9,144 bases of DNA from Candidatus Methanomethylophilaceae archaeon (lineage in GTDB: Archaea > Thermoplasmatota > Thermoplasmata > Methanomassiliicoccales > Methanomethylophilaceae): positions 1-9,144 of the forward strand of contig JAFZXW010000078.1 in NCBI GenBank assembly GCA_017616575.1, read 5' to 3'. The position numbers were made by a program, and so were the translations under genes. Below the pieces are notes generated by a model. The model had not been told where the DNA came from and did no database searches. It saw nothing but the letters and a program-made list of their open reading frames with translations. Positions 196 to 9,144 of this stretch are shown piece by piece (positions within the stretch are counted from its first letter, which is position 1; every line of letters starts with the position of its first letter).

Positions 196-1671
196 ATGTC
201 CGACGATACGATCTCCTTGGACGGCCAGTATGTGCCGGCCCGTTCTTTGATGGATTGCGGCTCCATGGGCTATGATCTGAAGAAGGCCGCCGCCGCAGCC
301 GAGCGCAGAGCGGAAGCAGGGGTTTTGGACGCGCAGTACCTTTATGCGCTGTTTCTTTACGTCGGGGATGCGGGAGTTTCGATAGACAGGAAGACGGCTT
401 GCGAGCTTTTTTCACTGGCCGCGTCCGGAGGATGCCGTCCCGCGTCGATTGTGGAAGCGGAGATCGAAAGGAATTCCGAGGAGACCATGGAGGGCCTGCT
501 CGGGTTGAGGCTTAGGGGCGAGCAGCGCGACGTCGACGCCTGCTCGAAGCTGTTCGACATGTACGACCACGGGACCTCATCCGTCAGAAAGGATCACGCG
601 GAGGCGATAAGGTGGTATACCGTCTGCGCGGAGAACGACGACGTGGCCGCTCAGAACACGATAGGGTTTATGTATCTCATGGGCAAAGGCATCCGCAAGA
701 ACCGCGAGAAGGCCGTGTTCTGGCTCCAGAAGGCGGCCGAGAACGGCTCCGCCGAGGCCATGTACCACATGGGGCAGATGTACGACCAGGGGCTATGCGA
801 CACGGAGCCCGACCTGGCGAAATCGGTGGAGTGGTTCTCCCGCGCCGCAGACGCCGGGGACACCGACGCCCTGTTCTCGATGGGATGCATTTGCTCCACC
901 CCCAAGACGAAGTACACCGACGGCAGGAAGGCCATATCGTATTTCGAGAAGGCGGCGGAGCAGGGCCATGCCGAGGCCCAGTACCAGATCGGAATGATCT
1001 ACGCCTACGGGGACGGCGTCAAGAGGGACCCCTCCGTGGCCGCGCACTGGCTGGAGAAGTCGTGCGAGAACGGGTTCCAGCAGGCGATGGTGGACTATTC
1101 TAACATGCGCCTCGACGGCCAGCTGCTCCCTATGGATTACGAGAAGGCCGCGCACTGGCTCACAGTGGCCGCCGAAAGGTGCAACGGATACGCCCAGTAT
1201 ACGTTGGCTTGCATGTACGGCAACGGGATGTACTTCGAGCAGGACGACAAGGAGGCGTTCAAATGGTTCACCGAGGCGGCCGAGATGGGCGAGATCAACT
1301 CCCAGTACTGCCTGGCCCGCTTCTATTACGAGGGCCGCGCCGTGGGGAGGGACCCGAAGATGGCAGCTGTATGGTTCGACCAGGCCGCGGACCAAGGGCA
1401 CCCTGCCGCCAAGGCGTTCCTAGGCATGATGCGCGTGACAGGTTCCGGAGTCGAGAGGGACGTGGAGCAGGGACTTAAGGACCTGAACGAGGCCGCCGAG
1501 TCCGATTTCCCGGATGCCGATTTCTATCTGGGAAAGCTGTATTACGACGGCGAGTTCGTGGAGAAGAACCTCTCCCGCGCCAAGAAGCACCTCACAAGGG
1601 CGGCTAAGAAGGGGGATCCCGACGCCGCCGCCTTCCTAGAAGCCATGAAGAGGGAGAGGAGACGCTGGTGA
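196..1671 (+). CDS. Sel1-like repeat (SLR) protein 1
   Basis: A 491-residue protein made almost wholly of Sel1-like repeats, the TPR-related alpha-solenoid units of about 36 residues. About ten are visible from roughly residue 35 onward, with the typical A-x-x-G-x-x-Y-x-x-G-x-G-V-x-x-D/N-x-x-K-A-x-x-W-x-x-x-A-A pattern. Clear examples are around IGFMYLMGKGIRKNREKA and IGMIYAYGDGVKRDPS. SLR proteins are scaffolds for protein-protein interaction; the partner is unknown. No signal peptide or membrane segment is seen, so it is likely cytoplasmic. The start at 196 is chosen from the TATA box at 167-177. An in-frame ATG at 112 would add 28 basic residues that include two CGA codons, a codon absent from every gene body here. 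It is the first gene of the operon. Its TGA stop (1669-1671) overlaps the GTG start of the next gene as GTGA. Confidence 0.85.
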   Translation: MSDDTISLDGQYVPARSLMDCGSMGYDLKKAAAAAERRAEAGVLDAQYLYALFLYVGDAGVSIDRKTACELFSLAASGGCRPASIVEAEIERNSEETMEGLLGLRLRGEQRDVDACSKLFDMYDHGTSSVRKDHAEAIRWYTVCAENDDVAAQNTIGFMYLMGKGIRKNREKAVFWLQKAAENGSAEAMYHMGQMYDQGLCDTEPDLAKSVEWFSRAADAGDTDALFSMGCICSTPKTKYTDGRKAISYFEKAAEQGHAEAQYQIGMIYAYGDGVKRDPSVAAHWLEKSCENGFQQAMVDYSNMRLDGQLLPMDYEKAAHWLTVAAERCNGYAQYTLACMYGNGMYFEQDDKEAFKWFTEAAEMGEINSQYCLARFYYEGRAVGRDPKMAAVWFDQAADQGHPAAKAFLGMMRVTGSGVERDVEQGLKDLNEAAESDFPDADFYLGKLYYDGEFVEKNLSRAKKHLTRAAKKGDPDAAAFLEAMKRERRRW

Positions 1672-2741
1672 GGGACCCCATCTTCCGCGCGGCCGAGATG
1701 GGCGACCCGTACGCCTGCCTCGGGGTGGCTTACTACTACCACCAAGGGAAAGAGGTGGAGCCGGACATGGCCAAGGCCGTCGAATGGTATCGGAGGGCCG
1801 CGTCCGGAGGTTGCCCCAGGGCCCACTGGGAGCTTTCCAGGCTCTATTCCGAAGGATACCTGGACGGTTCCGACGTATCGTCGTATGCGAGGCATCTTAG
1901 AACGGCGTCGGAGATGGGAAACGTCGACGCCCAATACGCATTGGCGCAGGAGCTATATTCAGGGGATCTTCTCGGGCGCAACGTCAAGGAGGCGGCCGAA
2001 TGGTACCGGAGGGCGGCCGAGAAGGGGCACGTCCTGGCCAAGTTCATGGTCGGGTACCTCATACATAGCGGGGAGGCCGCGGGGACGTCCGAGGACGCGG
2101 AGATGTGGTTCATGTCCGCGGGGCTGTCCGGCGACGGCGACACCTTCCTGGAAATCGGCTTGGACTACGAATACGGCCTGAACGGAATATCAGTGGACCG
2201 GGAGGAGGCTTTGCGCTGGTACAAGTGCGGCGCCGACATGGGCCATGAGAAGTGCATCCTTTGCTACAGGTCCGTCCTTTCGGAAGACGGCCCGGAAGGG
2301 TATGCCGAGCGCATGGAGGGAATCAGCAAGACCGCCGTCCAGAGGGAGACCGACGTGAGGGAGGCCGCCCTCCGCCGCGGGGATAGCTGCCTCGCCGAGG
2401 GGGACGAGGAGGCCGCCTACGAGAACTATTCTAAAGCAGCGGACCTCGGGGACCCTGACGCCATGGTCGCCATCGCCATGATGCACCACCAGGGCATCCA
2501 CGTCAGGAGGAACGACAGGAAGGCGATGGAGCTGTTGACCCGCGCCGCGTCCGCAGGATCTTGCGACGCCCAGTTCATGCTGGGGAGGTTCTACGACAAC
2601 AGCGAGTACCCCCGCGACGAGACCCTGGCCATCCAGTATTACGCCCAGGCCGCCGCGAACGGGTTCCTGGCTGCGTTTTACTATCTCGGGAACTATATGG
2701 AGCATCCCGAGACTTACGTTCGCAGGGTGAGGGGGCGCCGA
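1668..2741 (+). CDS. Sel1-like repeat protein 2, ending at CGA
   Basis: A 357-residue SLR protein with repeats from its first residues (AAEMGDPYACLGVAYYYHQG) to the end (AANGFLAAFYYLGNYME). A less regular helical stretch lies around residues 205-255. It starts at a GTG overlapping the previous TGA, with a purine-rich Shine-Dalgarno sequence (GGAGAGGA, 1653-1660) seven bases upstream. No standard stop occurs at the natural end. The frame meets CGA at 2739-2741, whose A is the first base of the next gene's ATG (CGATG). Under the standard code it would run to a TGA at 2919-2921, adding 60 Arg/Ser/Pro-rich residues that are an out-of-frame shadow of the next gene. I infer termination at the CGA. 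A one-base frameshift reaching the TGA at 2728 is the main alternative. Confidence 0.8.
2729..2735 (+). promoter_or_regulatory. Shine-Dalgarno for Sel1 gene 3
   Basis: GAGGGGG lies five bases before the ATG at 2741, inside the last codons of Sel1 gene 2. It fixes the start of gene 3 and implies translation coupled to gene 2. Confidence 0.5.
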
Positions 2742-2743
2742 TG
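2739..2743 (+). other. CGATG: putative CGA stop overlapping a start codon
   Basis: In-frame CGA (2739-2741) of Sel1 gene 2 shares its A with the ATG (2741-2743) of Sel1 gene 3. It has the form of the common TGATG stop/start overlap with T replaced by C. It is one of six gene ends in the window marked by CGA. Confidence 0.6.
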
Positions 2744-3478
2744 TCCTTCGAATCCGTCCTCGAATCCGCGAAAGCGGGCGACCCGGACGCGCAGGTCGCC
2801 ATCGGGTACATGTTCTTCAAGGGGGATGGCGTGGTCCAGGACCGGAGGGAGGCGGCCAGGTGGTTCGGCCTCGCCGCGGACCAGGGCAATGCCGAGGCCA
2901 TGTGCAACCTCGGGCACATGAGGGCGCACGGGGAAGGGCTCCGTCCGGACCTGGAGAAGGCCTTGGAACTCTACAGGAGGTCGGCCGAGCTCGGGTACCC
3001 CAGGGCGATGTTCAACCTCGCGTTCATGCTGACGGACGTCGAAGGCGTCGAGCAGGACTGGGAACAGGCGTTCGAATGGTATTCCAAGGCCGCCGAAGCC
3101 GGGAACCTCATAGCCATGTACCGCGTGGGCGTCATGTGCGAGGAGGGTCGCGGGACGCCGCAAGACCTAGGCAGGGCCGCCGAGGCCTACAAGGTCTGCA
3201 TGGACAACGGCCATCCGAAAGGAGGATACCGCCTGGGGATGATGCATCTCGACGGGAAAGGCGTTCCCAGAAACCCCGGAAAAGCCGTCAAATGCTTTGT
3301 CAAAGCGGCGGACGCCGGCTCGGAGGACGCGATGCTCATGCTCGGCAAGCTGTCCCTGTCCGGGGAGGGCATGGTCAAGAGCGAGCGCAACGCGGAGAAG
3401 TGGCTCAGGAAGGCCGCAGGGCGCGGAAGCCTGGAGGCGGCCGAGATGCTGGAGAGGATCAAGGAGGAAAAGAGATGA
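2741..3478 (+). CDS. Sel1-like repeat protein 3
   Basis: A 245-residue SLR protein with about six repeats; clear units are VAIGYMFFKGDGVVQDRREA and YRLGMMHLDGKGVPRNPGKA. The start MSFESVLESAKAGDPDAQ is a natural SLR N-terminus and has a good Shine-Dalgarno sequence. An upstream in-frame ATG at 2561 would only add a shadow of gene 2. It ends with a typical SLR C-terminal helix and a TGA (3476-3478) overlapping the next gene's ATG as ATGA. Together with genes 1 and 2 it forms a tandem family of divergent paralogues, probably from duplication. Function beyond scaffolding is unknown. Confidence 0.85.
   Translation: MSFESVLESAKAGDPDAQVAIGYMFFKGDGVVQDRREAARWFGLAADQGNAEAMCNLGHMRAHGEGLRPDLEKALELYRRSAELGYPRAMFNLAFMLTDVEGVEQDWEQAFEWYSKAAEAGNLIAMYRVGVMCEEGRGTPQDLGRAAEAYKVCMDNGHPKGGYRLGMMHLDGKGVPRNPGKAVKCFVKAADAGSEDAMLMLGKLSLSGEGMVKSERNAEKWLRKAAGRGSLEAAEMLERIKEEKR
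3461..3468 (+). promoter_or_regulatory. Shine-Dalgarno for the CoA ligase gene
   Basis: AAGGAGGA sits six bases before the ATG at 3475. It supports that start over the nearby in-frame ATG at 3481 and shows that internal operon genes use Shine-Dalgarno initiation. Confidence 0.7.
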
Positions 3479-4710
3479 GGATGAACGGCTACCAGAAGGA
3501 GAACATAATCAGGCTTCTCTCCACCATAAAGGACAAGAGCCCTTTCTACGCGAAGAAGTTCGAGGGCATAGACGTGGCCTCCATGACCACCCAGGAGGAG
3601 TTCGAGACCCTGCCTTTCACGGACAAGGGCGACCTGCGCGAGGCGTACCCGCTGGGTCTGGCCGCGGTCCCGGAGAGGGACATCGTGAGGATCCACTCCT
3701 CCTCGGGGACCACCGGGACGCCCGTGGTGATACCGTACACTAGGAGGGACGTGGAGGACTGGGCCGTCATATTCGAGCGCTGCTACAGGATGGCCGGCGT
3801 GACCGAGGCCGACAGGGTCCAGATAACCCCAGGGTACGGGCTCTGGACCGCCGGGATCGGCTTCCAGGCGGGATGCGAGAGGCTCGGGGCGATGGCGATA
3901 CCCATGGGGCCCGGAAACACCGAGAAGCAGATACGGATGATGAAGGACATGAGGTCCACGGTGATCACCGGCACGTCCTCCTACGCGCTCCTGCTCGCTG
4001 AGGAGATCGAGAGGCGCGGCATAAGGGACGAGCTCTTCCTCAAGAAAGGCATCATCGGCTCCGAGCGCTGGGGCGACAAGATGAGGCAGAGCATCGCGGA
4101 CAGCCTCGGGGTGGACTTCTACGACATCTACGGGCTGACCGAGATCTACGGCCCTGGAATCGGCATAAGCTGCGACTACCGCAACGGCATCCACATGTGG
4201 GACGACTACGTCTATTTCGAGATCATCGACCCTGACACCGGCGAGGTCCTCCCGGACGGGGAGACCGGCGAGCTGGTCATCACCGCCTTCAGGAAGGAGG
4301 GCGCCCCCCTGATAAGGTACAGGACCCACGACCTCACCAGGATCATCCCGGGCGAGTGCCCCTGCGGATCCAGGTTCCCCCGCATAGACATCATCATGGG
4401 GAGGACCGACGACATGGTCAAGGTCAAAGGGGTCAACATGTTCCCGGCGCACTTCGACGAGGCCATATCCCTCGTGGACGGCGCCACCGGCGAGTATCAG
4501 GTCATGATAGACCACCTCGAGGGCAAGGACATCGTCACACTCTACTTCGAGACCGGCTTTCCTCCGGAGTCCCGCCGCGCCCTGGAGCAGGAGATGACCT
4601 CCTTGATCAAATCACGCATCGGGGTGACCGTGGTGTCCAAGGCAGTCGACCTGGGATACCTCCCGCGCAGCGAGAAGAAGACGAACAGGTTCTTCGACAA
4701 CAGGTACCGA
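3475..4710 (+). CDS. Phenylacetate-CoA ligase-like AMP-forming enzyme, ending at CGA
   Basis: A 411-residue adenylate-forming enzyme of the PaaK type, which activates an aryl or other carboxylic acid as acyl-AMP and then forms the CoA thioester. Visible motifs: the ATP-binding loop SSSGTTGTP (75-83), YGLTE (219-223), RYRTHD (about 281-286), GRTDDMVKVKGVNMFP in the C-terminal region, and SEKKTNR (399-405) carrying the probable catalytic lysine. Archaeal PaaK homologues are common in methanogens and their substrates are often unclear; this one cannot be assigned. The ATG overlaps the previous TGA (ATGA) and has a strong Shine-Dalgarno. The protein reaches its natural C-terminus at FFDNRY, followed at once by in-frame CGA (4708-4710). 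Under the standard code it would instead fuse to the following phosphatase. I infer two separate proteins. Confidence 0.85.
4708..4710 (+). other. Putative CGA stop of the CoA ligase gene
   Basis: CGA follows the expected last residue of the ligase. Its GA begins the Shine-Dalgarno-like GAGGCGG (4709-4715) for the ATG at 4720. With T in place of C this would be an ordinary stop nested in a ribosome binding site, a common operon arrangement. Confidence 0.6.
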
Positions 4711-4719
4711 GGCGGCCAC

Positions 4720-5505
4720 ATGGAAGCCTCATGCGAGCTGGAGACCCTCAAACGGGCGCTGCTGAAGGCGTCCGCCGTTCTCGGAGACAGGACCGCCAGG
4801 TCGAAGGCCAACCCGCAGGGGGTCTACGACGCGGTCACCCCCTCCGACCTGAAGGCGGAGGACGTCATATTGTCGGAGATACGCTCGCGGTTCCCCGACG
4901 ATTCCGTCATATCGGAGGAGTCCAACCCGGATGCCGAAGGCTCTTCCAGGTCCTGGGTGGTCGACCCGATAGACGGGACTTTGAACTTCTCCCGCGGGAT
5001 CCCGCTGTACGGCCTGCAGGCGGCGTTCCTGGAGGACGGCGTTCCCAAGGCCGCTGCGATATGCCTTCCCGAGTACGGGGAGATGTTCTACGCGTCGGAG
5101 AAGGGGGCGTTCCTAGGGGACGTCCGCATTCGCACTTCGCCTCCCCGCCCGTTGAAGGAGTGCCTTGTGTCCACCGGCGACTACAGCCGCAGGTCGGAGG
5201 CCTTCAGAAGGGCCCAGGCCGCGGTGTTTTCCGAATGCTACGGCGACGTGGGGAGGTTCAAGATGTTCGGCGCCGCCTGCACCGACTTCGCGTTCCTCTC
5301 CTGCGGCCGCACCGACGTGCACCTGCGCTTCACGAACAGGATATGGGACTACCTGCCGGGCTTGTACATAGCCGAGCAGGCGGGGGCCGTCTACGATAAG
5401 GATCTTCAGAAGGAGAGGGACGTGCTCCTGCTCTGCTCGTCCCGCGAGGTTCTGGAAGAGGCGACCGAGAAGATGCTTCCGAGGATAATGGCTGCTTTAA
5501 GCCGA
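4720..5505 (+). CDS. Inositol monophosphatase-family phosphatase, ending at CGA
   Basis: A 261-residue Mg-dependent sugar phosphatase of the IMPase/FBPase/CysQ superfamily; family members are usually 250-270 residues. The metal-site signature is complete: SEES with E67, WVVDPIDGTLNF with D82 and D85 (79-90), and WDY with D210 ahead of an AEQAG motif. Archaeal members can act on inositol-1-phosphate, on fructose-1,6-bisphosphate, or both; the substrate cannot be told here. It begins nine bases after the ligase's CGA and is the last gene of the operon. The C-terminal helix ends at AALS followed by in-frame CGA (5503-5505). The standard-code frame would run to a TAA at 5704-5706 across the antisense of the conserved RfcS C-terminal region, which is not credible as protein. 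Confidence 0.82.
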
Positions 5506-5510
5506 CGTCG
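5503..5510. other. Palindrome CGACGTCG holding CGA stops of two convergent genes
   Basis: The eight-base palindrome places CGA in frame with the phosphatase on the plus strand (5503-5505) and CGA in frame with RfcS on the minus strand (5510-5508), two bases apart. Neither gene has TAA, TAG or TGA here. No oligo-T transcription terminator is apparent on either strand. The same octamer, with AGC on one side, occurs at the second convergent junction (8624-8631). Confidence 0.6.
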
Positions 5511-6467
5511 CCTCCGGTTGCCGCCGATCATCACCAGGTACGCGAGAAGAGCCTCGAGCTGGATCCTCTCGTTGCTTCCCTCGACGATCCTGAACTCGAT
5601 CTCCCCGGTCTTGTCCACAAGCCTCACCTTGTCAGAATCGGAGAGGCTGAGGTCGAAGAACGTGGAGTGGATCTGCCTTATGATGTCCTGCCCGGACAGG
5701 CCGTAATCGATCATGACGTTCTCGAGAGAGTCGCGGGCTTTGATGAAGTTCCCGCCGAGGGCCGTCTCGAGAATCTCCTTCACGGTCTCCGGGTTCGCGA
5801 TTCCGATGGTCTGATAGATGAGGTCGAGGTCTATCCTCCTCCCGAGGGATGCCGCCACCTGCAGGGAGTTGACCGCCCTCCTCATGTCGCCCTTCGCGAC
5901 CATCACCAGCCCCTTCATGGCGTCGTCGTCGATCTCGATGTTCTCGCTGTCGACGATCCTTCTCAGATAGGTCTCCACGTCCGCTGCGGAGAGAGGCTTG
6001 AACCTGAACACGGCGCATCTGGACTGGATGGGGTCTATGATCTTGGATGAGTAGTTGCAGGACAGTATGAAACGGCAGATGGAAGAGTATTTCTCCATCG
6101 TCCTTCTGAGCGCGGCCTGGGCGTCGGATGTCAGGGCGTCGGCCTCGTCCATGAAGATGATCTTGAATTCCGCGCCTCCCAGGGGGGCGGTCCTGGCGAA
6201 CTCCTTGATCTTCCCGCGCACCACGTCAATGCCCCTCTCGTCGGAGGCGTTGAGCTCTATGAAGTTGCCCTTCCACTCCCCTCCGAACATCTCCTTTGCG
6301 AGGGCGAGGGAGCAGGTGGTCTTCCCGGTGCCGGCGGGTCCGGAGAACATCAGGTGGGGCATGTTCCTCGAGGCGACGTACGCTTTAAGCCGCTCGGAAA
6401 CGTGCTTCTGTCCCACGACGTCGTCCAGCGTCTTCGGCCTGTACTTCTCCGTCCAGATCTCGTTCAT
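5508..6467 (-). CDS. rfcS: Replication factor C small subunit, ending at CGA
   Basis: A 319-residue clamp-loader AAA+ ATPase that loads PCNA onto primed DNA together with the large subunit. Motifs in order: EKYRPKTLDDVVGQ at the N-terminus, Walker A GPAGTGKT (43-50), Walker B DEAD (107-110), sensor 1 SCNY (136-139), the SRC motif (149-151), sensor 2 GDMRRAVNSLQ (193-203), and the helical collar. The length matches archaeal RfcS. The start MNEIWTEKYRP is the canonical N-terminus; upstream in-frame ATGs (6488, 6614) lie in or beyond the promoter region. The protein ends at MIGGNRR, then CGA (5510-5508). The standard-code frame would continue to a TGA at 5408-5406 through the antisense of the phosphatase C-terminus. 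It contains no inteins. Confidence 0.93.
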
Positions 6468-6494
6468 TGCGTCCGTCCGTATGCCCATCCACCG

Positions 6495-6500
6495 ATTAAA
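6495..6500 (-). promoter_or_regulatory. TATA-like box for rfcS
   Basis: On the minus strand it reads TTTAAT, centred about 30 bp before the RfcS ATG at 6467, predicting a leader of only a few bases. It lies in the 88-bp divergent region shared with the hydrolase gene. Confidence 0.45.
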
Positions 6501-6526
6501 CGTTGCCGTTCGGGTCACCGCATCTG

Positions 6527-6532
6527 TTATTA
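6527..6532 (+). promoter_or_regulatory. TATA-like box for the isochorismatase-like gene
   Basis: TTATTA is centred 26-27 bp before the ATG at 6556, the spacing expected for a leaderless archaeal transcript. No Shine-Dalgarno is seen before that ATG. Confidence 0.45.
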
Positions 6533-6555
6533 GCGCGCAAGCCTTGCGAGCCGGC

Positions 6556-7074
6556 ATGGTCGTGAAGGTGGAAGGGAAGAGGGCCGCCTTGGTGGTGGTG
6601 GACGTCCAGAACAAGTTCTATACGGTCACCGAAGGCCTGTATAATTCTGTCAACCGTCATCTGGAAGCGATGAACCGTGCCCTCGACCTGTTCCATGAGG
6701 CCGGGTCCCCCGTGGTCCTCGTGTGTTACGACGTGATGAACAGTTGCACTTCGGATTAGATGGACGACCCGGAGGCGTTCGTCGACGGTCTAAGAGTGGC
6801 CGATTCCGACATCCGCGTCCACAAGAAGGAGATGAATTCCTTCTTAGGAAGCGACCTCTTCCGCGTGCTCCGCGACGCCGGGGCAGAGTGCGTGGTATTG
6901 GTCGGTCTTGTGGCCCACCTCTGCGTGCTTTCCACGTATTACTGCGCCTTCGACCTGGGGTTCTCCCCGGTCATATTGGAAGGGGCCGTCGCGGCCACCG
7001 ACGAGGCGAACGTGGAGCGCGTGGAGGCGATCTGCCGCACCGTGACCCTGGAGAGCCTCTCTAAATCCCGCTAA
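6556..7074 (+). CDS. Isochorismatase-like hydrolase with in-frame TAG (probable pyrrolysine)
   Basis: A 172-codon cysteine hydrolase of the isochorismatase-like superfamily (nicotinamidase, isochorismatase and related amidases). The catalytic triad is intact: D16 in VVVDVQNKF, K90 in HKKEMNSF, and C123 in GLVAHLCVLSTYYCAFDLG. Codon 68 (6757-6759) is TAG, in the segment between the second strand (PVVLVCYDVM) and the catalytic lysine. The frame continues without shift through both halves to a TAA at 7072-7074. Because the halves share frame, codon use and a complete active site divided by the TAG, read-through as pyrrolysine is likelier than decay. An alternative is a recent nonsense mutation. 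The substrate is not predictable. The gene is divergent from rfcS and followed closely by the MFS gene, which appears to have its own promoter. Confidence 0.8.
6757..6759 (+). other. In-frame TAG, candidate pyrrolysine codon
   Basis: TAG at codon 68 of the isochorismatase-like gene is followed directly by in-frame ATG GAC GAC. Methanomassiliicoccales decode UAG as pyrrolysine through PylS and tRNA-Pyl. No gene in this window needs TAG as a stop under the CGA model. The ATG after it could permit internal initiation of a 104-residue product, but that would lack the catalytic aspartate. Confidence 0.6.
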
Positions 7075-7077
7075 CCC

Positions 7078-7083
7078 TTTTAT
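7078..7083 (+). promoter_or_regulatory. TATA-like box for the MFS gene, also a T-run
   Basis: TTTTAT begins four bases after the hydrolase stop and is centred about 26 bp before the MFS ATG at 7106, matching the leaderless spacing seen elsewhere in the window. The T4 run could also act as a weak archaeal terminator for the upstream gene. Confidence 0.45.
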
Positions 7084-7105
7084 CGGGCACCTGACATGAG
7101 GGGGC

Positions 7106-8626
7106 ATGACGGCCGAGGCTCTCGTTCCACGCGCAGGCATGGACGTGTCGGCGAGGAGGCTCCTTCTCGTCGGCATGTGCATGATATACGTCGTGACGTG
7201 CCTCGACGGAACTATCATCAGCATCTGCGGCAAGCAGATAATGACCGACCTGGACGGGATGCAGTTCTATTCCTGGCTGACTGCGTCGTTCCTTCTCACC
7301 CAGACCGTCCTGATACCCATCGCCGGAAAGATGTCCGACCAGTTCGGACGCAAGCCCGTCCTGTACCTGGGGGTCGCGTTCTTTGCGGTCGGGTCGGCGA
7401 TGGCCGCGGCCTCGTTCAGCCCGGAGATGATGATAGTCAGCCGTGCGGTTCAAGGGATAGGGGGAGGGATGGTTTCTCCGGTGTCGAACGCCCTCGTGGC
7501 CGACGTCTACCCTCCAGAGGACAGGGCCAAGGTCATGGCCAGCATCAATCTCCTCTGCATGCTGAGCATGGTCGGGGGCCCGTTCGTCGGCGGGGTCATC
7601 TGCGCTGTGACCACCTGGCACTGGGTGTTCATCATCAACCTCCCGCTGGTCGCCCTCTTCTTCGCTCTCACGGCGAGGACGTTCCCGGAGGCCGCCCCTG
7701 AAGGGAACAAGACGATAGACTACATGGGCATGGCCGCGCTCTCGGCGATGATCCTGGGGTCCCTGTTCGCCTTCCAGTTCTACTCGTCCATGGACCTCGT
7801 CCAAATCGCGGTGATAGTGCTCGCCGTCGTCGTCCTGTTGGTAATGTTCATCCGTATCGAGACGAGGTCGGCAGAGCCCGTGATGGCCCCAAGCCTTCTG
7901 CGCAGGAAGGTGGTGAGGCTTTCCTCGACGTTCATGTTCGTCAACAACCTCGGGCTGTTCGGCGTGGTGTCCTTCATCACGCTTTACGGCATGTTCGTGT
8001 ACGGCCTGACCGAGATCGATTGCGCCATGCTCTGCATCCCGATGTTCGTCACCATGGGCGTGTTCACCGCCCTCAACGGGGCCTTCCTTCCGAAGACCGG
8101 GTACAGGCTGTGGGTGGTGGCCGGGTTCCTCCTCATGGGGGCTCCGCTGATCTTTCTTTACATCTGCGGACCCGACGCCTCCTTGACGGTGGTGGCAATT
8201 GTGATGGCCGTATTCGGGGCAGGATGCGGGGCCCTGGGGAGCACCATATCCGTGTCCCTTCAGAATCATACGGCCAAGAACGAGATGGGCATGAGCCTGG
8301 CCACTGTCAACCTTGTCCGTTCCGTGGGCTCCACGCTCGGCGCGGCAGTCTCCGCGTTCGTCATCTCGTTCATTATGGATTCGGAGATGGCAAGGTCTTC
8401 TTTCGCCTATGTTTCGGAGGAGACGGGTTTCAGCGGTACAGGCCTGCTGGACCTGGTCTCGGACACGTTCGAGGCGTTGTATCCTGGAATCAGCGAGGCC
8501 GTCATAGGGTTCTTCGGGGACGGGTTTGGGGTCTGGTCGGCCGTCATCGGCGTGGCATACCTGTTGCTTGCCCTCCTCGGGATGAAGATGGACAAGGGGT
8601 ACACGGTGTGCGAGGACGGCAGTCGA
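7106..8626 (+). CDS. MFS drug/metabolite exporter, DHA2 (EmrB/QacA) type, ending at CGA
   Basis: A 506-residue polytopic membrane transporter with hydrophobic helices throughout; length and motifs fit the 14-helix proton-antiport DHA2 group. Visible motifs: LDGTIIS in helix 1 (D34), motif A GKMSDQFGRKP (74-84), motif B RAVQGIGGG (113-121), motif C around MVGGPFVGG, and WHWVFIINLP, typical of EmrB-like proteins. It probably exports a small molecule; the convergent NRPS gene suggests a peptide product, but this is inference. The ATG at 7106 is favoured by TATA spacing; no Shine-Dalgarno sits at the right distance. The protein ends with a short hydrophilic tail (VCEDGS), then CGA (8624-8626). 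The standard-code frame continues to a TAG at 8720-8722 across the antisense of the NRPS domain. Confidence 0.87.
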
Positions 8627-8631
8627 CGTCG
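8624..8631. other. Palindrome CGACGTCG holding CGA stops of MFS and NRPS genes
   Basis: Plus-strand CGA (8624-8626) is in frame with the MFS gene, and minus-strand CGA (8631-8629) is in frame with the NRPS gene. The arrangement repeats the junction at 5503-5510, including AGC directly 5' of the octamer on one strand. On the minus strand a second in-frame CGA follows one codon later (8625-8623). Confidence 0.6.
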
Positions 8632-9144
8632 GCTGAGCGAATCCGTCAGGAACATCACCGCTTTGTCGAACTCCTCCGCCACCTTTGAGACGGTCTGGTC
8701 GTCGTATCTCTCCGAGGAGTAGATCTGCATCGAATACCCGTCCCCGTCGTCGCCGACCTTTATCCACAGGTCCGTCAGAGGCCGGTAATCGCTCCTGATA
8801 AGGGGCTCCACTTCGAACGGAGCGCTGTCGACCGCGTCGACGTCTATCTCTGTGAAATGGGCGTACTGCAGCCTGACAGTGGACTCGACGTCCATGTACC
8901 TTCTGAGCTCCCAGTAGGGGTACTCGTCGTAGGTCATCGACGCCATGACGTGGTCGGTCATCTTGCCGAGCACCCTTTTCGGGTCGCGGTCCCTTATCGC
9001 CACGGCGGCCGGGAATCCTTTGGCGTACATCCCGACGGACCCGGACAGGTCCATGTGGCCCCTTCCGTCCTCGGTAATGAAGAACAGGCACTTCTCCTTC
9101 CCGGACATGTTCCTGAACGCATATTCGAGGGCGGTGGCGAAGAA
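8629..9144 (-). CDS. NRPS condensation-type domain, C-terminal part, ending at CGA
   Basis: The last 171 residues of a larger protein whose start lies beyond the right edge; the frame is open to base 9144, so the ATG at 9108 is not its start. It resembles the second half of a condensation or epimerisation domain of non-ribosomal peptide synthetases: FFATALEYAFRNMSG, then EDGRGHMDLSGSVGMYAKGFP, which corresponds to the family's GRE-x-D-x-S-x-TVGWFT-x-x-FP region, then PLTDLWIKV and YSMQIYSSERY near the end. Ending right after this domain would fit a terminal condensation or epimerisation domain. It ends at TDSLS, then CGA (8631-8629). The standard-code frame would continue to a TAG at 8409-8407 through MFS antisense. 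A stand-alone condensation-like acyltransferase is an alternative. Confidence 0.65.

Follow-up and report, generated by a model that had tools for sequence, protein, structure and literature searches.

Changes of a sense codon into a stop codon were previously described for green-algal mitochondria, i.e., those of the Sphaeropleales, in which UCA and UCG were reassigned in this way (PMC6821328), and the Codetta tool revealed that the arginine codons CGA and CGG came to encode tryptophan in Absconditabacteria (PMC8629427). In this work, a DNA stretch of 9,144 nucleotides from Candidatus Methanomethylophilaceae archaeon (contig JAFZXW010000078.1; hereafter called the window) was analyzed together with related genomes. 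We consider it highly probable that CGA is a stop codon in this archaeon, and we predict that the archaeal release factor aRF1 reads it as it would a variant UGA; the gene of the cognate tRNA is altered in every genus copy examined and apparently lost in one species. Such a function of CGA had been proposed in a preliminary description of the window, and it is supported by the genome-wide census and the orthologue tests presented below.

The likeness to the Sphaeropleales consists in the fate of the codon, which vacates gene interiors and marks gene ends, and PMC6821328 ties that change to the release factor. There, however, the codons are serine codons of an organelle with an altered mtRF1a, whereas here an arginine codon is affected in the genome of a cellular archaeon whose relatives have an aRF1 with unchanged motifs. 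With Absconditabacteria the genus shares the group of CGN arginine codons that changed meaning, along with changes of CGN tRNAs, but that reassignment is sense-to-sense and took place in low-GC bacteria, whereas the one proposed here is sense-to-stop. According to the authors of Codetta, a tool in wide use for predicting genetic codes, sense-to-stop changes are undetectable by it (PMC9825746), which may explain why a CGA stop was missed. Sense-to-stop cases in the literature examined are mitochondrial, while the case described here concerns an archaeal genus, and literature searches, covering few subscription papers, found no earlier report of a CGA stop in any archaeon. Phrases naming CGA as a stop occur in the plant-mitochondrion literature (judged by wording only), where RNA editing is likely the reason; the phrase sense-to-stop also turns up for pedinophyte organelles (again, by wording only).

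The window is contig C184 of the source assembly (G000; 1.25 Mb in 247 contigs, 61% complete). Amongst the nine genes examined in it, six end with CGA, two with TGA (both in start/stop overlaps), and one with TAA, and no internal CGA was found in their 2939 codons, which contain 190 other arginine codons. The six in-frame CGA codons were confirmed at the coordinates and on the strands originally given for them. Four of them lie on the forward strand: the likely stops of Sel1-repeat gene 2 (1668-2741), at 2739..2741, where CGATG overlaps the next start; of a PaaK-like ligase (3475-4710), at 4708..4710; of an inositol-monophosphatase-family gene (4720-5505), at 5503..5505; and of a major facilitator superfamily (MFS) exporter (7106-8626), at 8624..8626. 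Two lie on the reverse strand, at 5508..5510 for RfcS (5508-6488) and at 8629..8631 for a fragment resembling a nonribosomal peptide synthetase (NRPS; 8629-9144), whose Condensation match falls below the Pfam cut-off. The earlier claim that each of these codons marks a natural C-terminus was upheld by orthologues for the ligase (the orthologue ends with ...FDNRY) and for RfcS (orthologues stop at the same place), and approximately, by the C-termini of relatives, for the phosphatase. The ends of Sel1 gene 2, the MFS exporter, and the NRPS fragment were placed by the layout of open reading frames alone, as for each of these genes none of the fetched relatives reaches the C-terminus.

The Pfam matches of the window genes agree with the gene bodies upstream of CGA. 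Under read-through, RfcS would extend as far as 5406 while the phosphatase would reach 5706, which bears out the tail-to-tail overlap of about 300 bases predicted for this pair, and standard translation joins the ligase and the phosphatase into a single frame of 948 codons. More generally, if these gut methanogens were translated by the standard code, some of their proteins would come out fused or too long.

To place CGA amongst other codons by coding potential, we took every codon preceded by coding sequence and determined whether in-frame coding continues beyond it. This census covered 228 kb of the 1.25 Mb of G000, 358 kb of G020, 700 kb of G006, and 57 kb of G043, with a coding model whose training frames were interrupted at CGA. 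When CGG was used for the interruption instead, the CGA counts of the pooled genus loci hardly changed (26 ends, 39 continuations, and 2 ambiguous cases, vs. 27, 38, and 2 with the original model). In G000, coding ended at 61 CGA codons and continued at 9, compared with 74 and 12 for TGA and 11 and 0 for TAA, whereas the other arginine codons gave 125 ends and 997 continuations (AGG), 74 and 607 (CGC), and 29 and 89 (CGG). Several of the nine continuing CGA cases arise because the following gene happens to begin in that frame, e.g., at 4708 of the window. Thus, in G000, CGA behaves like TGA and TAA and unlike the other arginine codons. In G043, the counts were 26 ends and no continuation for CGA and 20 and 1 for TGA, and in G020 they were 59 and 2 for CGA, as against 10 ends, 56 continuations, and 14 ambiguous cases for CGA in the outgroups. 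The end counts include CGA codons located downstream of another CGA in the same frame; those first in their frame number 49 of 61 in G000, 50 of 59 in G020, 16 of 18 in G006, and 22 of 26 in G043. After 36 of the 49 first-in-frame CGA ends of G000, neither TAA nor TGA occurs for more than 10 codons. A general first-base relaxation of aRF1, under which CAA would also be a stop, was rejected. CAA mostly continues, both in G000 (56 continuations, 15 ends, 10 ambiguous) and in the outgroups (80, 16, and 20), and if first-base recognition is relaxed at all, the relaxation is therefore not general.

The gene interiors present the complementary picture. For the alignments, a match had to reach 40% identity and 80 residues, and only the best match at each place was retained; the genus loci were taken from two collections, which contain partly the same genomes. 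The genus includes the record UBA71 (its locus L171 represents the same place as G041), and many of its members come from animal guts. Internal CGA was found 3 times in 29,863 codons of G000 and 247 times in 111,366 codons of the outgroups (p = 1.1e-21, a rough value, genes being not independent). All genus sets together gave 38 in 176,619 codons, at least 10 of these 38 being codon 78 of aRF1. CGA has thus nearly disappeared as a sense codon throughout the genus. The preliminary description had named numerous conserved CGA arginine codons inside genes as the observation that would speak against a stop function; they were searched for and not found, and the sole conserved exception seen is located within aRF1.

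Gene ends were then compared at the exact codon at which the relative stops. For this test, matches of more than 99.9% identity or ending more than 3 residues short of the reference C-terminus were also dropped, as was the G000 duplicate L231, contained in L326 (it was retained in the count of internal codons). CGA stood at this codon in 15 of 74 cases in G000 (TGA in 22, TAA in 1), 12 of 26 in G043 (TGA in 7), 4 of 16 in G001, and 4 of 12 in G046, compared with 5 of 330 in the outgroups. The corresponding Fisher p values of 1.8e-8 for G000 and 6.9e-12 for G043 are rough, since related genes are not independent. The alignment of gene 3' ends to homologues, proposed earlier as a check, thus places CGA at orthologue stops. 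Taken together with the lower counts given below for other members, the use of CGA as a stop varies by species, being common in G000, G001, G043, and G046 and rare or unseen in many other members.

Three genes of the window illustrate this variation. In the ligase, all 21 genus members with a visible C-terminus end with ...FDNRY; the next codon is CGA in two of them, G000 and G043, and TGA in the other 19 (six further rows, with 36-38% identity, were taken for paralogues and excluded). Amongst 29 RfcS loci, the next codon is CGA in G000, G001, and G043, TGA in 24, and TAA in 1, and one locus is cut off. The phosphatase C-terminus was reached in 20 relatives, 13 with CGA and 7 with TGA, a comparison weakened by the presence of TGA or TAA 0-1 codons beyond the CGA in 9 of the 13. 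These nine loci, in which CGA is followed by TGA or TAA (L338, L340, L341, L342, L345, L346, L349, L353, and L355), may contain either tandem stops or a residual arginine codon.

The position 33 uridine (U33) is near-universal in tRNAs, and the pair 31-39 closes the anticodon loop. The simplest expectation of the preliminary description, absence of tRNA-Arg(UCG), did not hold, as this tRNA is encoded in G000 (contig C169), as well as in 25 other genus genomes checked, in an altered form. All 26 genus copies depart from the usual structure, 18 with a 31-39 mismatch and a normal U33 and 8 with C33, and neither change occurs in any of the 15 outgroup copies among the matches listed. In the G006 group, the gene was recognized by ARAGORN on G006 stretches, and in G021 it was identified by a pattern match only. 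It is reasonable to infer from these changes that the altered tRNA would decode CGA poorly. Total loss of tRNA-Arg(UCG) as a general cause was rejected, the tRNA being present, though altered, in most genus members.

It should be stressed that G043 joins three traits, i.e., no tRNA-Arg(UCG) found, CGC in place of CGA at codon 78 of aRF1, and CGA exceeding TGA at gene ends. In this assembly (87% complete), each of the 33 tRNA matches of class-I length was identified and none is UCG, 10 longer matches being not all read, and the tRNA-Arg set identified comprises CCG, CCU, GCG, and UCU. The 1.5 kb around hypE also contain no tRNA-Arg in G043; as evidence of a clean deletion this is supportive only, as the tRNA lies apart from hypE in G008 too. 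In the tree of aRF1 and RfcS, G043 forms the first branch in the genus, with weak support (71%). The species of the genus thus apparently represent different stages, i.e., CGA purged and the tRNA kept, CGA used as a minor stop, and the tRNA not found with CGA as the commonest stop, and such stages would allow a direct test of the path of a code change.

The gene encoding aRF1 was read wholly or partly in 28 genus genomes, 27 of which cover codon 78. In 26 of the 27 this codon is CGA, with no second CGA in the aRF1 stretch read, whereas G043 has CGC. It specifies a conserved arginine, present also in the three solved release factors aligned, and frame 0 of aRF1 runs on through it, collinear with the solved aRF1/eRF1 sequences. 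The preceding codon 77 has T as its third base in 25 of 26 genus genes, the exception being G043 with C, as compared with 2 of 58 outgroup genes, and the following codon is CTC, CTA, or CTT, so that the context reads U-CGA-CU. In the outgroups, CGA occupies position 78 in 6 of 58 loci, all of which contain further CGA codons. Independent CGA stops in two loci with CGA-78, L133 and L137, were considered and not supported, as these loci contain 7 and 4 CGA codons, respectively, per about 2000 codons. Near the codon-reading motifs, the sole residue diagnostic for the genus is A76, two residues before the CGA codon: alanine occurs there in 26 of 26 genus proteins (L071-L095 and L098) and methionine in 44 of 58 outgroup proteins.

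The bacterial prfB gene is known to autoregulate through an internal UGA, an element that can be lost (PMC13245932), and aRF1 resembles it in that a release-factor gene keeps an in-frame codon at which, if CGA is a stop, its own product would terminate. The two differ in that prfB needs a +1 frameshift, whereas aRF1-78 stays in frame and could be passed only if a tRNA decoded it. Of the prfB-type features, the genus gene thus shows the conserved in-frame codon (as CGA) and lacks the +1 frameshift. CGA-78 is likely an autoregulatory stop comparable to that of prfB, and not a member of that type.

Direct reading by aRF1, one of the two mechanisms offered in the preliminary description, would be the simplest one for a CGA stop, and it raises the question of how this factor could tolerate C as the first base. 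In the fuller scenario that we regard as somewhat favored, CGA would have joined UGA and UAA as a stop at the base of the genus, and the crippled tRNA would have been kept for self-sensing of aRF1 at codon 78. As the altered tRNA-Arg(UCG) would read CGA poorly, aRF1 would outcompete it and translation would end. Abundant aRF1 would, in the same way, stop translation at codon 78 of its own mRNA, and when aRF1 is scarce the tRNA would win at U-CGA-CU, giving read-through in the same frame and full-length aRF1. The retention of tRNA-Arg(UCG) may then be explained by this feedback loop, which would need it. In the lineage of G043, both the tRNA and CGA-78 seem to be gone, and CGA would have become the leading stop there; amongst the genes tested in G043, more end with CGA than with any other stop.

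Several observations weigh against CGA as an aRF1-read stop, or against parts of this scenario. The preliminary description had suggested a search for substitutions in NIKS and YxCxxxF, the codon-reading motifs of aRF1. No change in either was found in the aRF1 of the genus, both being as in the outgroups, and the aRF1 of G000 itself was not found in its 61%-complete assembly. Most genus members still encode the tRNA, and amongst the 15 outgroup copies in the matches listed, 3 also carry a mismatch in the stem, at its far end (27-43). In G012, G015, and G016 the tRNA was not found (assemblies 66-88% complete; G016 was included in fewer searches), and two of these incomplete assemblies, G012 and G015, retain CGA-78 without a detected tRNA to read it. 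CGA at exact orthologue stops is infrequent in G006 (1 of 71), G020 (2 of 71), G008 (1 of 15), and the pool of remaining genus loci (5 of 181), and it was seen in none of 32 cases in G007 and none of 22 in G013. In G006, a normal stop occurs within 3 codons after 6 of the 16 first-in-frame CGA ends, and the stop function is therefore less sure there. A few internal CGA codons are left in G000, two of them apparently within plausible proteins (L034:8646 and L277:2932), which may reflect read-through, pseudogenes, or residual arginine. As regards codon 78, fixation is not unique to it, as the aRF1 arginine positions 50, 186, and 189 are also codon-fixed, not as CGA, and no RNA structure was found downstream of it (mean z of -0.43 for 18 sequences with a simple mononucleotide shuffle).

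Amongst other explanations, the one closest to ours is a double meaning set by context, in which CGA is arginine at sites such as aRF1-78 and a stop at gene ends, the reassignment being incomplete. The conserved CGA-78 with U before it and CU after it would fit this, as would the tRNA kept in most genomes, the few internal CGA codons remaining, and the rare stop use in several species, but sense CGA in G000 amounts to about 1 per 10,000 codons and no tRNA-Arg(UCG) was found in G043. We regard this as possible and clearly less probable than a plain stop; it overlaps with our best explanation, and the probabilities assigned to the readings do not sum to one. Editing of C to U in mRNA, which would make UGA from CGA and allow an ordinary aRF1 to terminate, would likewise produce CGA gene ends and decay of the tRNA and would suit the unchanged aRF1 motifs. 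It would, however, need an enzyme acting on many unrelated sites, and aRF1-78 would still require unedited or read-through copies. Moreover, there is no fixed base after the CGA ends, as judged from base composition (no formal motif search was made). Editing is thus an unlikely explanation.

Still less probable, in our opinion, is a CGA that is merely unassigned, at which the ribosome would stall owing to a poor or missing tRNA and be rescued without true termination. The altered or missing tRNA-Arg(UCG) and the unchanged aRF1 motifs agree with it, but G043 has CGA at 12 of 26 exact-position ends, RfcS and the ligase also end with CGA there, and stalls on so many mRNAs would presumably be costly. 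As for sequencing or assembly errors, or ordinary arginine codons in long overlapping genes, the source assembly is fragmented, as indicated above, and the preliminary description had itself asked that an artefactual TGA-to-CGA change be excluded. Such an artefact is unlikely, because the pattern recurs in other assemblies (G007, G020, and G001 match records of three different projects) and the tRNA and aRF1 genes are changed alongside. Errors and overlapping arginine-coding genes taken together seem to us highly improbable, the least credible of the readings considered.

Returning to CGA as a stop, both CGA codons of each convergent gene pair in the window (5503-5510 and 8624-8631) are contained in the palindrome CGACGTCG. 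As a common stop signal this palindrome was rejected, since it was present at none of the CGA ends of G020, G043, and G006.

Another unusual stop codon was found in the isochorismatase-family gene of the window (6559..7074, forward strand, ending with TAA), which is split by an in-frame TAG at 6757-6759; both pieces match PF00857, the first below the cut-off. This TAG is likely a site of pyrrolysine insertion or other read-through. UAG encodes pyrrolysine in Methanomassiliicoccales (PMC4153887), so the same order already treats one stop codon unusually, although that change is stop-to-sense and the one proposed for CGA is sense-to-stop. PylS scored over the cut-off in 27 of 31 genus genomes and was not found in the incomplete assembly of G000. 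TAG ends 1 of 550 aligned genus genes, compared with 29 of 328 outgroup genes. The two TGA-ending genes of the window, both on the forward strand, are Sel1-repeat gene 1 (196..1671), whose stop overlaps a GTG start, and Sel1-repeat gene 3 (2741..3478), whose stop overlaps an ATG start; together with gene 2, they form a row of three Sel1-repeat genes at 196-3478.

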